DNA from: a virus
DNA: 64,000 nucleotides
Reading direction: 5' to 3' (one strand)
IMG/VR virus record: IMGVR_UViG_3300044695_004134
Location: 62,001-126,000 of that record
The notes under the pieces were generated by a model. That model saw only the letters and a list, made by a program, of their open reading frames with translations. It had not been told where the DNA came from and did not search any database. Position 1 is the stretch's first letter. Each line of letters begins with the position of its first letter. The position numbers and the translations under genes were made by a program. Below are positions 22,531 through 32,037 of this stretch, piece after piece.

Positions 22531-22558
22531 ATTATACACGATCCGTAGAGAATGGCAA
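22531..22558 (-). promoter_or_regulatory. Early promoter TTGCCA-N16-TATAAT
   Basis: -35 at 22558-22553, -10 at 22536-22531, - strand. It drives the run of small genes from 22498 downward. A GGTCAAG half-site of the palindrome family lies about 30 nt upstream. Confidence 0.75.
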
Positions 22559-22724: not shown

Positions 22725-22928
22725 TCACCTCTTATAGTGAACCGGACGCTCATAACGACCTTCAGAGTCTCGATAAACGGAGACATAATGACCGTGCTTT
22801 GAACCATCATCGAAAGTGTAAGAGAAGGTAGAATTATAGGAGAGTGGAGGGAAATTCAGTGCCCATGATTCCAATAATCCTTCAGATTCAAGAGCAGAAT
22901 TGAGGGTGGGAAAGAAGTTTTGTTTCAT
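22725..22928 (-). CDS. Hypothetical protein
   Basis: A 67-residue protein (MKQNFFPTLNSALESEGLLE...). Tyr-, Ser- and His-rich C-terminal strand region. ATGA overlap with the leaderless gene upstream. Function unknown. Confidence 0.55.
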   Translation of the reverse strand: MKQNFFPTLNSALESEGLLESWALNFPPLSYNSTFSYTFDDGSKHGHYVSVYRDSEGRYERPVHYKR

Positions 22929-23164
22929 ACGAATAAATCTCCATAATATTCTTCATCAAAAGAATCAAAATCTTTTTGTATCCATTCAATAGTATAACCA
23001 GAAGAAGAATACTCAGAAGCCATTTTCTCCAACTCAGCAAGAGCCATAGAGGGAGAAAGTTTTCCAGAAGCCATCAGAGACAGGTTGGAGCAATGCATAA
23101 AGTTATTGGAATCTTTATGTGCGGAGACCTGAATGAATCGCTTGGGTGTGTTTGTGTGTGTCAT
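22925..23164 (-). CDS. Hypothetical protein, predicted leaderless
   Basis: 79 residues from MTHTNTPKRFIQVSAHKDSN. The start is set by the promoter: a TATAAT box ends exactly 7 nt before this ATG, so an upstream start is not available in the transcript. The middle (ASGKLSPSMALAELEKMASE) is helical and the C-terminus acidic. Function unknown. Confidence 0.65.
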   Translation of the reverse strand: MTHTNTPKRFIQVSAHKDSNNFMHCSNLSLMASGKLSPSMALAELEKMASEYSSSGYTIEWIQKDFDSFDEEYYGDLFV

Positions 23165-23171
23165 GGATGGT

Positions 23172-23199
23172 ATTATAGCGGTACTGGTAGGAATGGCAA
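23172..23199 (-). promoter_or_regulatory. Early promoter TTGCCA-N16-TATAAT, leaderless geometry
   Basis: -35 at 23199-23194, -10 at 23177-23172. The ATG at 23164 follows after 7 nt, the usual distance to the transcription start. Confidence 0.75.
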
Positions 23200-23301
23200 T
23201 AGCATAGTTAACGGGTGTGACGAAAATACAACATGGAACATTGGAACGTGTTGGATGACCAATATGCAATATAGTGCATGTGGAGAAAGGTGTTGAGAAC
23301 C

Positions 23302-23321
23302 TGTGGATAAACTGTGGATAA
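23302..23321 (-). promoter_or_regulatory. Two tandem DnaA boxes
   Basis: TTATCCACA twice on the - strand, start-to-start distance 11 bp, both matching the strict bacterial consensus. Host DnaA could bind here. Confidence 0.6.
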
Positions 23322-23435
23322 CTTTTGGGTGTCGCTGTATGTGTCGCAGGGTGTCGTGGGTGTTGGGTTGCTATTTAGTCTTAGTGTCTGGCTCTGAAAC
23401 GCCTGAAAATTTCACAGAGTGTCTCAGAGGTGACA

Positions 23436-23485
23436 GCACGTTTCCGCACGTTCCAGTGGGTTCCAGTGGGTTCCAGCACGGTTTG
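23436..23485 (+). repeat. Five 10-bp direct repeats (iteron-like)
   Basis: Units GCACGTTTCC, GCACGTTCCA, GTGGGTTCCA, GTGGGTTCCA, GCACGGTTTG run head to tail with a period of exactly 10 bp, so the same DNA face is presented each turn. Confidence 0.65.
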
Positions 23486-23559
23486 GAATGTTTTGCTCTG
23501 TGTGGGTGTCAGAATGTCTCAGAGTGGTGCTGGACGCCCATTGAAAAACCATCAGGCAG

Positions 23560-23603
23560 CCTCTACGTCCACCCCCAGTCTTGCTGTTCGAACCAATGGA
23601 TCC
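23560..23603 (-). ncRNA. Conserved early leader or small RNA element, copy A
   Basis: The 5' end of the transcript from the promoter at 23604-23632 shares a block with that of the promoter at 25678-25705: TTCGAA, AGCA(A/G)GACTGGGG and TGGAC, then GAGGCTG. No good ORF follows copy A, so it may be a short untranslated RNA. Structure not computed. Confidence 0.35.
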
Positions 23604-23632
23604 ATTGTACTCTAAAAAAGACCACCTGGCAA
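23604..23632 (-). promoter_or_regulatory. Early promoter TTGCCA-N17-TACAAT inside a terminator
   Basis: -35 TTGCCA at 23632-23627 lies in the loop and descending arm of the terminator at 23614-23642; -10 TACAAT at 23609-23604. It reads into the non-coding region. Confidence 0.6.
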
Positions 23633-23642
23633 CCACCAGGTG
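23614..23642 (-). terminator. Rho-independent terminator
   Basis: On the - strand: CACCTGG, loop TGGTTG, CCAGGTG, then GTCTTTTTT. It ends the AAA+ ATPase unit (24899 down to 23659). Confidence 0.75.
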
Positions 23643-23658
23643 TCTCATCTACGCAACA

Positions 23659-24017: not shown

Positions 24018-24899
24018 TTAACCGCAGATGGTGTATTCTGCAAGGTCTTTCCACTTGGCACCAGCAGACTTGCGGATTTTAGTGGTCTGGATGAGTGTAC
24101 GGAGTGACAATTCTTTCACCTCATCTTGGAGGTTGTCAATCAGGTCCAGAGCATCGGACTTTTCAGTCTTTGAATACTCTGGCATAAACTCAGGAAGGGA
24201 CACCAGGTGGCGCATACGCTCCACTTTTTGCTCGGTTGTCATTGTCAGGTCAACAGCCATGGAACGGGTGATGATGGCTTGGTCCATCGAATCGGAGGAC
24301 AGGTTAGAGATAAACACCACCCGGCCCTTGAATTCAAAGGATTGTGGGAGTTCGTCATCCTTCATGTCTGCACGCCATGAAATCACACGGCGGGAGTAGG
24401 AGTCCAATGCACCTTTGAGCAGGTTCAAGGACACTGGATCCTTCAGCACGGAATCGCAGTCGTCAAAAACAACCACGCCGTCCTTGTTTTCATACAGTGT
24501 ACGGTACAGGCCTTTTGGAGTGGAGTAGCCCTTGATAACACGGTAGGACTTGGTGGTGTTGATTTTGCCACCGACCTCGAATTCATCCAGGAGGGTAACG
24601 TCCTTCATGCCGGCATCATTCAGTGCCTTGGTGACGGTGTGGGACTTGCCAAGGCCACCGGGACCAGATACAACCACCGAGGACTGGTCACCTTTCACCA
24701 ACATGGCGACCATGTCAGACACGAAACCGAACCGCTGGTTGATGGTGAAGCGGGACTCCTTCACATTGACAGGAGCACCACCGGTGGCACCTGTAGCCTT
24801 GCGGATCACATAGTCCATGTGTTCCTTTTTGGCACGCTTGACCACCTTGCCGTTGATGTTGGCCACGTATTTGCCACCTACGAACTTGACTTCAATCAT
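24018..24899 (-). CDS. AAA+ ATPase (phage-type)
   Basis: A 293-residue protein. Walker A GPGGLGKS (residues 79-86), GVVVFDDCDSVL (Walker B), GRVVFISNLSSDSMDQAIITRSM (sensor 1 and Arg-finger region). The N-terminal 50 residues (KYVANINGKVVKRAKKEHMD) form a separate small domain. It resembles AAA ATPases found in many phages near replication or early genes, distinct from the BCS1-like and CobS-like ATPases elsewhere in this window. GC-rich codons compared with flanking regions. SD AAAGGAAATT. Confidence 0.85.
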   Translation of the reverse strand: MIEVKFVGGKYVANINGKVVKRAKKEHMDYVIRKATGATGGAPVNVKESRFTINQRFGFVSDMVAMLVKGDQSSVVVSGPGGLGKSHTVTKALNDAGMKDVTLLDEFEVGGKINTTKSYRVIKGYSTPKGLYRTLYENKDGVVVFDDCDSVLKDPVSLNLLKGALDSYSRRVISWRADMKDDELPQSFEFKGRVVFISNLSSDSMDQAIITRSMAVDLTMTTEQKVERMRHLVSLPEFMPEYSKTEKSDALDLIDNLQDEVKELSLRTLIQTTKIRKSAGAKWKDLAEYTICG

Positions 24900-25588: not shown

Positions 25589-25628
25589 CCATGCTTGCAA
25601 TAGTCGACCAAAATGGTGGGTTATTAAT

Positions 25629-25677
25629 ATAACGCCCAGCCTCCGTGTCCACCCCAGTCCTGCTTTCGAATAGGTCC
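25629..25677 (-). ncRNA. Conserved early leader element, copy B
   Basis: Transcript 5' region below the promoter at 25678-25705. It shares with copy A (23560-23603) TTCGAA, AGCAGGACTGGGG, TGGAC and GAGGCTG. The message then runs into the second promoter and the gene at 25553. Could be a structured leader. Confidence 0.35.
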
Positions 25678-25705
25678 ATTATACCAGAACCAGCCGGTTT
25701 GGCAA
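25678..25705 (-). promoter_or_regulatory. Early promoter TTGCCA-N16-TATAAT
   Basis: -35 at 25705-25700, -10 at 25683-25678. Divergent from the + strand promoter at 25753-25780, with only 47 nt between the two -35 boxes. Confidence 0.75.
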
Positions 25706-26074: not shown

Positions 26075-26824
26075 ATGAATTTACTCTCCACTGGCAACCC
26101 TAAGGTCCTCAAAGGCATGGCTCAGGGTTACAATACCTACATCCTGCACCTCGCTCCAGCCGACCTGTCCGGTTATGAGACCTGCGCCAAGCGGACCAAA
26201 GGTTGCACGGTGGCATGCCTGAACCTCGCAGGACGTGGTGGCATGTTCAAAAAAGGTGAAACCACCAACGTTATCCAGCAGGCTCGAATCCGCAAAACCA
26301 AAATGTTTTTCCAAGACCGTGAGATATTCATGAGCCTTTTGGTCAAAGATATTGAATTGGCTATTAAACAATCCGCCAAAATCAATATGGTCCCAGTGAT
26401 TCGCCTTAATGGCACTTCGGACCTGGCCTTTGAAAAGTATGCCGCAGTCCGTAATGGTGTGGAATATAAAAACATTTTCATGGCATTCCCTGAATTACAA
26501 TTCTATGATTATACCAAGATTCTCGGCCGCAAAATCGCCGATTATCCAAACTATTCTCTGACATTCTCGGCAGCCGATGGTAATGATACGGACGTAGCCA
26601 AGGCAATTGCCCAAGGTTATAACGTGGCAGTGGTATTCGGTATTAAGAAAACCCTCCCAATGCCTGCCGATTATCTGAGTATGCCAGTTTTTAATGGCGA
26701 TGAGTCGGACCTCCGTTTTCTGGATCCAAAAGGCTCGATTATCGGCTTATATGCCAAAGGCAAAGCCAAAAAAGATACCACTGGTTTTGTAAAATACCCC
26801 GCCATTATGATGGCATCCGTTTAA
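26075..26824 (+). CDS. GP88-family protein
   Basis: 249 residues from MNLLSTGNPKVLKGMAQGYN. The conserved block ILHLAPADLSGYETCAKRTKGCTVACLNLAGRG has the Cys residues typical of the GP88 family (first named from a mycobacteriophage gene 88 protein). ARIRKTKMFFQDREIFMSLLVKDIE and VIRLNGTSDLAFEKY also match. Radical-SAM-like behaviour has been guessed for this family because of its Cys cluster, but activity is unproven. AAAGG lies upstream; expressed from its own early promoter. Confidence 0.85.
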   Translation: MNLLSTGNPKVLKGMAQGYNTYILHLAPADLSGYETCAKRTKGCTVACLNLAGRGGMFKKGETTNVIQQARIRKTKMFFQDREIFMSLLVKDIELAIKQSAKINMVPVIRLNGTSDLAFEKYAAVRNGVEYKNIFMAFPELQFYDYTKILGRKIADYPNYSLTFSAADGNDTDVAKAIAQGYNVAVVFGIKKTLPMPADYLSMPVFNGDESDLRFLDPKGSIIGLYAKGKAKKDTTGFVKYPAIMMASV

Positions 26825-29835: not shown

Positions 29836-32037
29836 TTATGCAATCAAGTTAATGAAGCGGTTCAACACGATACGATTTGAGACACGGTTGCTTGTATACT
29901 TTGCGAAAGCAGAGACAAGACCACGGGTTGTCGTTGAAGTAACTTCGAATTCGTCATCTTCGTCAGTGTCCAGTTTATCTGAACGGATAAAGTAATATTC
30001 ATCGTATCCAACGTTATTTAGATACGTGAAGTTGTTCTTGCGGAACTCTGCCACACGGTGATCGATTTTACTTTCTTCCGACTTCGGTGAATACATTACA
30101 AGTGCATGACGAACATCACGTACTTTTGCAACATAGAAACCAACCACGTTTGCATCTGTACGTTGCTTGAGTAGTTGAAGGAGTGCAGTTGTTTGAGCCG
30201 CACCACGTGAACCATATCCAGAACACTCAGTCACTTCAACTGATGCTTTGGTAATCGGATCACGGAAGAAACTTCTCATTTTCCAATTAGAATCAACTGA
30301 AGACCAATCATACCGTTCACCTTCAACAGCATCGATACGACCATACAGCGTAGAGCCTTCACCATCAGTCAGAAACACACTGTTCACAATTTCAAGTTTG
30401 TTTTCTGTCTTGAACTTCGGAATAACTTTGAATGCGGCAATGACTGCCTCATTCAGTGGTGTTCCACCAAGTTGAAGAATCTCTGGTGGTTCCATGTTTG
30501 AACATGTACCACGGCGACCTGTACCATAATCAAGGAGATATGATGCCATCTTGGTGAATTCATTCGCACTCATTTTGTGTGAAAGAATGTTCAGGAGTGA
30601 AAATGGGTGGACAACCAAGTCACCGACTTTCAGTTTCTGTGATTTCAGTTTTTCTTGGCTCAGAAGTTGGCAAGTCGAGAATGCATATACATCAAAAGGA
30701 ATGTTTACCTTTTTGCAGAACATTACAAGGTTCAAAAGTTGCTTTACTGTGGGTGACATATGGTCACACATAGAACCAGACCAGTCGATAAACATCACCA
30801 GACCATGAGACTTACCGTTAGGCACTTTAGTGAGCCTAGCGAAAATGTCATCAGTGAATTTGTATTCGTGAATTTTTGAAAGATTCAGTTCACCAGTCTT
30901 GGAGACTTTTGCACGTGTTTGTTGTTCAGCATTTTTACGCATTTCGAATTCTTTCACAAGGTAAGAAACAACCTTGTTAGATTCGGTGCGGAACTTACTG
31001 AAGTTTGCCCGCATTTTATCTTCGTTGAACCATTCTTTACGGATTGGATCAGTATTGTGTTCCATAACTTCTTTAATCAGAGTTTTGTGGTCAACAACAA
31101 TATTCTCAATAAGAATCTCGGGAATGTTTGAATACATCACATCTTTACGGTTTTCACCGGAATACAATTGTTTTTCCTTTTCACGGAAAGCATTGTCTGT
31201 TTCAGATTCAATCTTTACATCATCTGAGCCGGCAGAACCAGTTCCACCAGTTTCTGGTGTTTCAGATTTATCTAAACCAATATCTTGTTCGGTTTCTTCG
31301 GCATTACCAGAAGGTTGTGTTTCAATATTTGCCTCTTTGGCTTCACCTTCTTTTGGTTCACTGACACCTTTTTCTTGGTCTTCACCTTCATTAAAATCAA
31401 AATCAGTAGGTCCTGTGTTCCCAATTTCTGGTGACATTTCTTCACCAGGTTCGACCTTTGGTGGTTTGGATTTTTGTTCTTTGGATTGTTCTTTCATAAA
31501 CTTTTGAATTTTCATGGCAATTGCCAGAGTTTCTTCAAACGTTTCAGCATCTTCAACTTCACGTACCAAAGAATATTCTTCGGAAGTAAAATCGATACCT
31601 TGAGCCGCACCACCTTTTGTGTAAAGGTTAATACGGTCAATGAAATTCATGGAATTCAGATTTCTACCTTCAGTGCCAAAGAAGTCCATCTCCATCAGTT
31701 CACGATAACCTTTTACAAAGGAAATACGAATACCAGGAAATCTACGTTTGATTTTCTTTTCGATACGTGCATCTTCGCACACATTAAGAATTGAACGATT
31801 GACTTTGAGGTCAACGACAGAATCGTGCCAGCCTTTTTCAGGCGTTTCTAGTGCATGTCCAACTTCGTGACCGAGTAAAAGGTCAATAACTTCGTTGGAT
31901 AGATTGCCGTTCAGAACAGGAACGGTGAGAACACGGTTTTTGATATCGAAAAATGCTGTCGGAACCTGACGTTGTTCGACAATCAGGTTTTCCGTAGCCA
32001 TGAGGCGTGCAAGATTTGATTTTGATTCAACTAGCAT
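29836..32037 (-). CDS. cobT-like: CobT-like protein: zincin motif plus vWA domain
   Basis: A 733-residue protein. N-terminal HEVGHAL (His57, Glu58, His61) with the likely third ligand in NVCEDARIEKK forms a metallopeptidase-like (zincin) motif. Residues about 195-290 are acidic, Glu/Gly/Pro-rich and probably disordered. The C-terminal half holds GLVMFIDWSGSM (MIDAS DxSxS, about residue 417), typical of a vWA domain. This resembles CobT-type partners of MoxR/CobS AAA+ ATPases, and a CobS-like gene is present at 14574-15734. Likely a metal- and ATP-dependent remodelling pair; the client is unknown. TTGACA-N16-TATAAT precedes it. Confidence 0.82.
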   Translation of the reverse strand: MLVESKSNLARLMATENLIVEQRQVPTAFFDIKNRVLTVPVLNGNLSNEVIDLLLGHEVGHALETPEKGWHDSVVDLKVNRSILNVCEDARIEKKIKRRFPGIRISFVKGYRELMEMDFFGTEGRNLNSMNFIDRINLYTKGGAAQGIDFTSEEYSLVREVEDAETFEETLAIAMKIQKFMKEQSKEQKSKPPKVEPGEEMSPEIGNTGPTDFDFNEGEDQEKGVSEPKEGEAKEANIETQPSGNAEETEQDIGLDKSETPETGGTGSAGSDDVKIESETDNAFREKEKQLYSGENRKDVMYSNIPEILIENIVVDHKTLIKEVMEHNTDPIRKEWFNEDKMRANFSKFRTESNKVVSYLVKEFEMRKNAEQQTRAKVSKTGELNLSKIHEYKFTDDIFARLTKVPNGKSHGLVMFIDWSGSMCDHMSPTVKQLLNLVMFCKKVNIPFDVYAFSTCQLLSQEKLKSQKLKVGDLVVHPFSLLNILSHKMSANEFTKMASYLLDYGTGRRGTCSNMEPPEILQLGGTPLNEAVIAAFKVIPKFKTENKLEIVNSVFLTDGEGSTLYGRIDAVEGERYDWSSVDSNWKMRSFFRDPITKASVEVTECSGYGSRGAAQTTALLQLLKQRTDANVVGFYVAKVRDVRHALVMYSPKSEESKIDHRVAEFRKNNFTYLNNVGYDEYYFIRSDKLDTDEDDEFEVTSTTTRGLVSAFAKYTSNRVSNRIVLNRFINLIA

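Follow-up and report, generated by a model that had tools for sequence, protein, structure and literature searches.

The 64,000-nucleotide stretch of DNA analysed here, referred to as the window, covers positions 62001-126000 of an IMG/VR virus record of 166,193 bp. The T4-type Gp23 capsid protein encoded in this record is ~65-68% identical to Gp23 of Methylophilales, Stenotrophomonas and cyanobacterial phages, and no DNA-level match to the 12-kb region was found among cultured phages. We worked from sequence only, on metagenome-derived records that are possibly fragments, and collected relatives through the neighbouring AAA+ gene (24018..24899) as anchor. As related sequences do not represent independent events, kinship was handled by means of clusters and distinct strings.

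Positions 23200-23658 had been reported in a preliminary description as gene-free, lying in a GC-rich island near a divergent switch at 25.6 kb. This stretch indeed looks non-coding, because indels between relatives disrupt any frame, and a coding gene was rejected on these grounds. The island is borne out as well (GC 0.45-0.52 versus ~0.38), and the strand switch is present but merely local. One end of the stretch carries a promoter on the minus strand (TTGCCA-16-TATAAT, 23172..23199), which separately serves the next gene (22925-23164), the other end a terminator and a second promoter (23642-23604). Strong promoters of the form TTGNCA-16-TATAAT recur at window positions 22558, 23199, 24955, 25323, 25705 and 26017; they drive small early-type genes, and 17 were found versus 7.5 in shuffles.

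The product of the anchor gene, an AAA+ ATPase (phrog_1250, minus strand), is less probable as an initiator: its best Foldseek matches are MoxR/CbbQ/NorQ-like folds and dynein AAA+, with ORC and Cdc6 chains also in the list, and judged by its predicted fold it looks MoxR-like. A 733-aa protein at window 29836-32037 belongs to a cyanophage-type 'peptidase' family (phrog_459) and may, by analogy with NorQ-NorD, be the VWA-type partner of this ATPase.

A promoter and a structured RNA element

A conserved minus-strand block became apparent when the relatives were aligned; it adjoins the second promoter and lies upstream of the DnaA boxes on the same strand. In order, there come the intrinsic terminator of the upstream gene (23615..23642, conserved in relatives), whose 3' arm holds the -35 of a sigma70-type promoter, this promoter, TTGCCA-17-TACAAT (23604..23632; TATAAT in L004, L006 and L007), and then TTGGTTCGAACAGCAAGACTGGGGGTGGACG. 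The earlier reading missed this promoter and the structured RNA behind it, which are the most conserved parts of the stretch. The RNA element, termed type A (23529..23600, minus strand; covariance-model match 70 bits), contains a near-invariant 10-nt loop, GUUCGAACAG (23584..23593), in which CAG can pair with CUG at 23576-23578. The loop is enclosed by covarying stem A (23581..23596), with its 5' strand at 23594-23596 and its 3' strand at 23581-23583 (UUG/CAA here). A second, diverged copy, type B (25609..25678, minus strand; 22.7 bits), follows its own promoter, TTGCCA-16-TATAAT (25678..25705, minus strand).

In type A, the three bases 5' of GUUCGAACAG pair with the three bases 3' of it, and all 33 distinct sequences have a canonical middle pair, with five pair types in total (shuffles: mean 14.5, maximum 27). 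In type B, UUCGAA and GGGRUGGACG are retained while the hairpins between them differ, and the outer pair is canonical in 28 of 28 distinct hairpins (AT 10, CG 8, GC 8, TA 2; shuffles: mean 11.7, maximum 21). Because the search patterns included the family-defining flanks, ascertainment accounts for part of the flank invariance; the patterns left the covarying partners largely unconstrained. Compensatory base changes across divergent sequences, the mark of a structured RNA, are thus found in both types. The CAG/CUG hairpin of type A has the stem bases within its loop, which makes a small pseudoknot likely; this assignment and a GUUC/GGAC pairing are based on invariant bases. The case for structure rests on covariation, because minimum-free-energy folding alone gave no unusual stability (z 0.8, 1.6 and -0.4). 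RNAalifold on a MAFFT alignment placed all pairs in invariant columns and did not recover the covarying stem. A leaderless peptide encoded by the element (MVRTA...) was also considered and is disfavoured, as the stems covary and the reading frame varies between relatives.

The element (UUCGAA-hairpin-GGGRUGGACG) occurs at ~80 loci in IMG/VR phage contigs. Pattern scans located the block in otherwise unrelated contigs of up to 364 kb, the large ones mostly encoding Gp23, and a type B scan with the hairpin left free returned ~45 loci. The covariance model identified second copies in the window genome and several others, and many genomes hold two or three. Almost every copy is preceded by a near-consensus sigma70-type promoter, with 6-11 nt from -10 to loop in most cases and ~30-49 nt in the rest; since the promoter lies just upstream, the transcript is predicted to begin with the element or close to it. 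Intrinsic terminators follow the RNA at 7 of 76 loci, versus 8 of 207 control windows, and are thus a weak candidate for its end. Among the gene families recurring within 3 kb are the GP88-family (25 of 82 loci; in the window PF17338 at 26096..26824, plus strand), a GIY-YIG-like small protein (23), the p95 family (22) and a convergent 65-aa protein (18). Such neighbours recur at window 26096-26824, L068, L077, L138 and other loci, suggesting a conserved early locus.

The flanking genes have no fixed orientation relative to the element, and therefore the RNA is not generally a leader; the exception is L132, which has a gene and its ribosome site directly behind the element. This bears on the idea that the 5' structure attaches to the very polymerase by which it was transcribed and enables that enzyme to pass early-operon terminators, as HK022 put RNA does. 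Two copies in many genomes, the promoter-proximal position and the ~70-nt length are as in HK022 (PMC9378689), and in the window group the downstream genes do lie on the same strand. In G006, L066, L067, L141 and L147, however, most or all of them lie on the opposite strand, a separate promoter often follows the RNA, and the DnaA boxes described below would be left unexplained; we thus consider a put-like function improbable. The opposite-strand genes, which leave the RNA without a same-strand gene to serve, count instead in favour of a replication origin. In L135, L144, L153 and L062, a conserved GTGGGAAGATCC-like start follows an opposite-strand promoter downstream of the element, which points to an antisense transcript running towards the RNA.

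Covariance-model searches of Rfam 15 returned no family match at gathering score, and blastn together with model R1 on 10 phage genomes gave sub-threshold matches only among cultured phages. Neither T4 nor plasmids yielded a credible match, and the single hit in bacterial genomes, in Streptomyces, misses the rest of the element. A literature search retrieved no relevant paper on the exact sequence. Within what could be searched, neither the RNA family nor its association with DnaA-box arrays appears to have been described. DnaA boxes as such are sites of a common type. Tandem TTATCCACA is also present in phage contigs that lack the RNA element. In L031 and L046, which encode a protein homologous to the 70-aa protein of the window, tandem DnaA boxes occur with no RNA element nearby.

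DnaA boxes and repeats downstream of the element

Two strict DnaA boxes 11 bp apart had been claimed for the stretch, and both are present as perfect TTATCCACA on the minus strand (23302..23310 and 23313..23321), their starts 11 bp apart. The window has a single such pair (TTATCCACA-N0-6-TTATCCACA), and none arose in 100 dinucleotide shuffles. Single TTWTNCACA boxes show no excess in the window (13 found, 14.5 expected), and strict boxes number 6 in the full 166,193-bp record versus 4 in the reversed control. The unusual feature is the box pair only, not single boxes.

Relatives with ~90% AAA identity or more (L002/L023, L004/L005, L006, L007 and L022) carry two to three tandem TTATCCACA spaced by 11-12 bp, and those at 77% or less have no DnaA boxes downstream of the AAA gene. 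The boxes are thus kept in close relatives, with the exception of L003, which has lost them despite an AAA gene 99% identical and a box region otherwise near-identical to that of the window phage. At 700-800 nt past its AAA gene, L003 has four short palindrome-like repeats (ACACTACCTATAGTGT type) in their place. The preliminary description had named a lack of boxes throughout the close relatives as a refutation, and this pattern is not what the relatives show. Accidental boxes in an intergenic region undergoing decay would agree with the chance-level count of single boxes; conservation in relatives, the shuffles, and the unbiased enrichment and phasing across unrelated phages described below led us to reject this explanation as extremely improbable. 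Conservation and recurrence beside the same RNA element in unrelated phages support the window boxes as a predicted DnaA-binding site.

The other repeats proposed for the stretch are confirmed in part. GTGTCG is not enriched window-wide (20 versus 18), but three copies (CGACAC) do cluster at 23329..23356, in a block conserved in relatives, GCGACACA(T)CCAGCGACA. The 10-bp iteron-like repeats at 23436..23485 are real; only 2.7 units (23450-23476) are perfect and the flanking ones degenerate, so that the count of five was generous.

To follow the boxes across phages, element-bearing loci were grouped by downstream similarity into 45 clusters, 41 of which were usable. An unbiased count of all 9-mers over the 500 nt that follow the element puts TTATCCACA first by number of clusters (10 of 41), tied with its overlapping shift GTGGATAAC. 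As the RNA pattern found most loci, the boxes were not selected for. Downstream of the element, 39 boxes lie at 0-250 nt and 4 at 250-500 nt, those of the window group being ~260-350 nt away; upstream there are none within 1.25 kb. Enrichment amounts to 35 boxes in 16.8 kb versus 2 in 365 kb for type A, and to 30 in 21 kb versus 16 in 444 kb for type B. Spacings are mostly 11, 12 and 21-23 bp, hence the boxes are helically phased, and such clusters of consensus boxes in helical phase are a feature of DnaA-dependent origins of the oriC type.

About three quarters of the clusters have no strict boxes. The stretch downstream of the element is repeat-rich (median percentile 0.92), often so at box-less loci too, and where DnaA boxes are missing, AGTGTGA repeats are raised ~twentyfold. 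The AGTGTGA/AAGTGTGA repeats, seen downstream of the element in L066, L131 and L053, are possibly another iteron set.

This distribution also bears on two further explanations. A small regulatory RNA gene might act in trans on host or phage targets, with DnaA on the downstream boxes blocking or tuning transcription as a roadblock. The strong promoter, the conserved 5' structure and the independence from neighbouring gene orientation fit this idea, as do boxes on the transcribed side only and the scarcity of intrinsic terminators after the RNA, which would make another stop useful. Nevertheless, boxes in both orientations (51 and 17) and phased multi-box arrays exceed what a roadblock needs, most clusters have none, and the window-group boxes are remote from the element; we regard this reading as possible but unlikely. 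Alternatively, the boxes could be a decoy like E. coli datA, replicating phage DNA titrating DnaA and halting host initiation, with the RNA an unrelated neighbour. Phased clusters of consensus boxes, multiplied by phage copy number, would suit a decoy, for which no unwinding element is necessary. It leaves unexplained, however, why the boxes are confined almost entirely to the 500 nt that follow the RNA, and the window phage has only two; a decoy thus seems to us a poor prospect.

Discussion

As judged from these comparisons, the conserved element is real in environmental T4-like phages, and a similar arrangement exists in unrelated phages. By sequence, the module has a near-consensus host-type promoter ahead of the structured RNA. 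Behind the RNA lies non-coding, repeat-rich DNA, which in the window phage and about ten other phage groups contains helically phased DnaA boxes. Such a module is origin-like, and we consider an origin the most likely of the explanations, plausible with chances just short of even.

The preliminary proposal of a replication origin is favoured by the conservation of the DnaA sites and their recurrence beside the RNA, and weakened by the box-less L003 and by the lack of both an AT-rich unwinding element and a GC-skew switch. AT content is not raised in the window or in most box-bearing loci (L201 being an exception). The proposed skew analysis revealed no switch at the element in G000, G010 and G006, although this is a weak test because skew tracks gene strand. 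Boxes missing from most clusters and two to three copies in many genomes also count against an origin, as do the replisome that T4-like phages encode for themselves and the MoxR-like look of the neighbouring AAA+ protein.

In an origin, host RNA polymerase would, early in infection, transcribe the RNA into the DnaA-box array. The duplex would be opened jointly by host DnaA on the boxes and by transcription, acting through supercoiling, an R-loop or a primer, and the phage replisome could then start there. The RNA structure would probably stabilise the transcript or hold a protein at the site. That this new RNA class and host DnaA constitute a dedicated replication start site, common to environmental T4-like and giant Gp23-bearing phages, is a more far-reaching proposal, which we advance tentatively and with some doubt.

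How replication starts in T4-like and giant environmental phages is known only from a few models. A structured RNA combined with host DnaA sites offers a direct, testable and easily found candidate, and the element could serve as a metagenome marker for such candidate sites. Even if it is no origin, it represents an RNA family with covariation support, outside Rfam 15 and absent from the cultured phages searched.

Among known systems, the E. coli datA locus likewise has clustered DnaA boxes; it differs in that, to our knowledge, no promoter-RNA element exists there. Bacterial oriC can have an upstream promoter transcribing into it, as in mioC-oriC, and the window shares with this type the phased TTATCCACA boxes and a promoter aimed into them. 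The window module has fewer boxes and no AT-rich unwinding region, however, and the phage that carries it, being T4-like, is expected to bring its own replisome. HK022 putL/putR RNA is structured, ~70 nt long, near a promoter and present twice per genome (PMC9378689), all features of the element described here, yet put forms two long stem-loops, whereas the window element is a short hairpin or pseudoknot that often has no downstream same-strand operon. With the R-loop origins oriF and oriG of T4, of which oriF uses a transcript R-loop (PMC3016281), the module shares a promoter that transcribes into the origin; those origins combine a MotA middle promoter with an AT-rich unwinding element (PMC3016281), which was not seen in the window. 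T4 oriE consists of an early promoter and 12-nt iterons (PMC3016281). Its repeat unit differs from that of the window and DnaA is unmentioned in that review, but both are found in a T4-like phage and join an early-type host promoter to non-coding tandem repeats, which in the window are evenly spaced and partly degenerate, the early timing being deduced from the host-type promoter.
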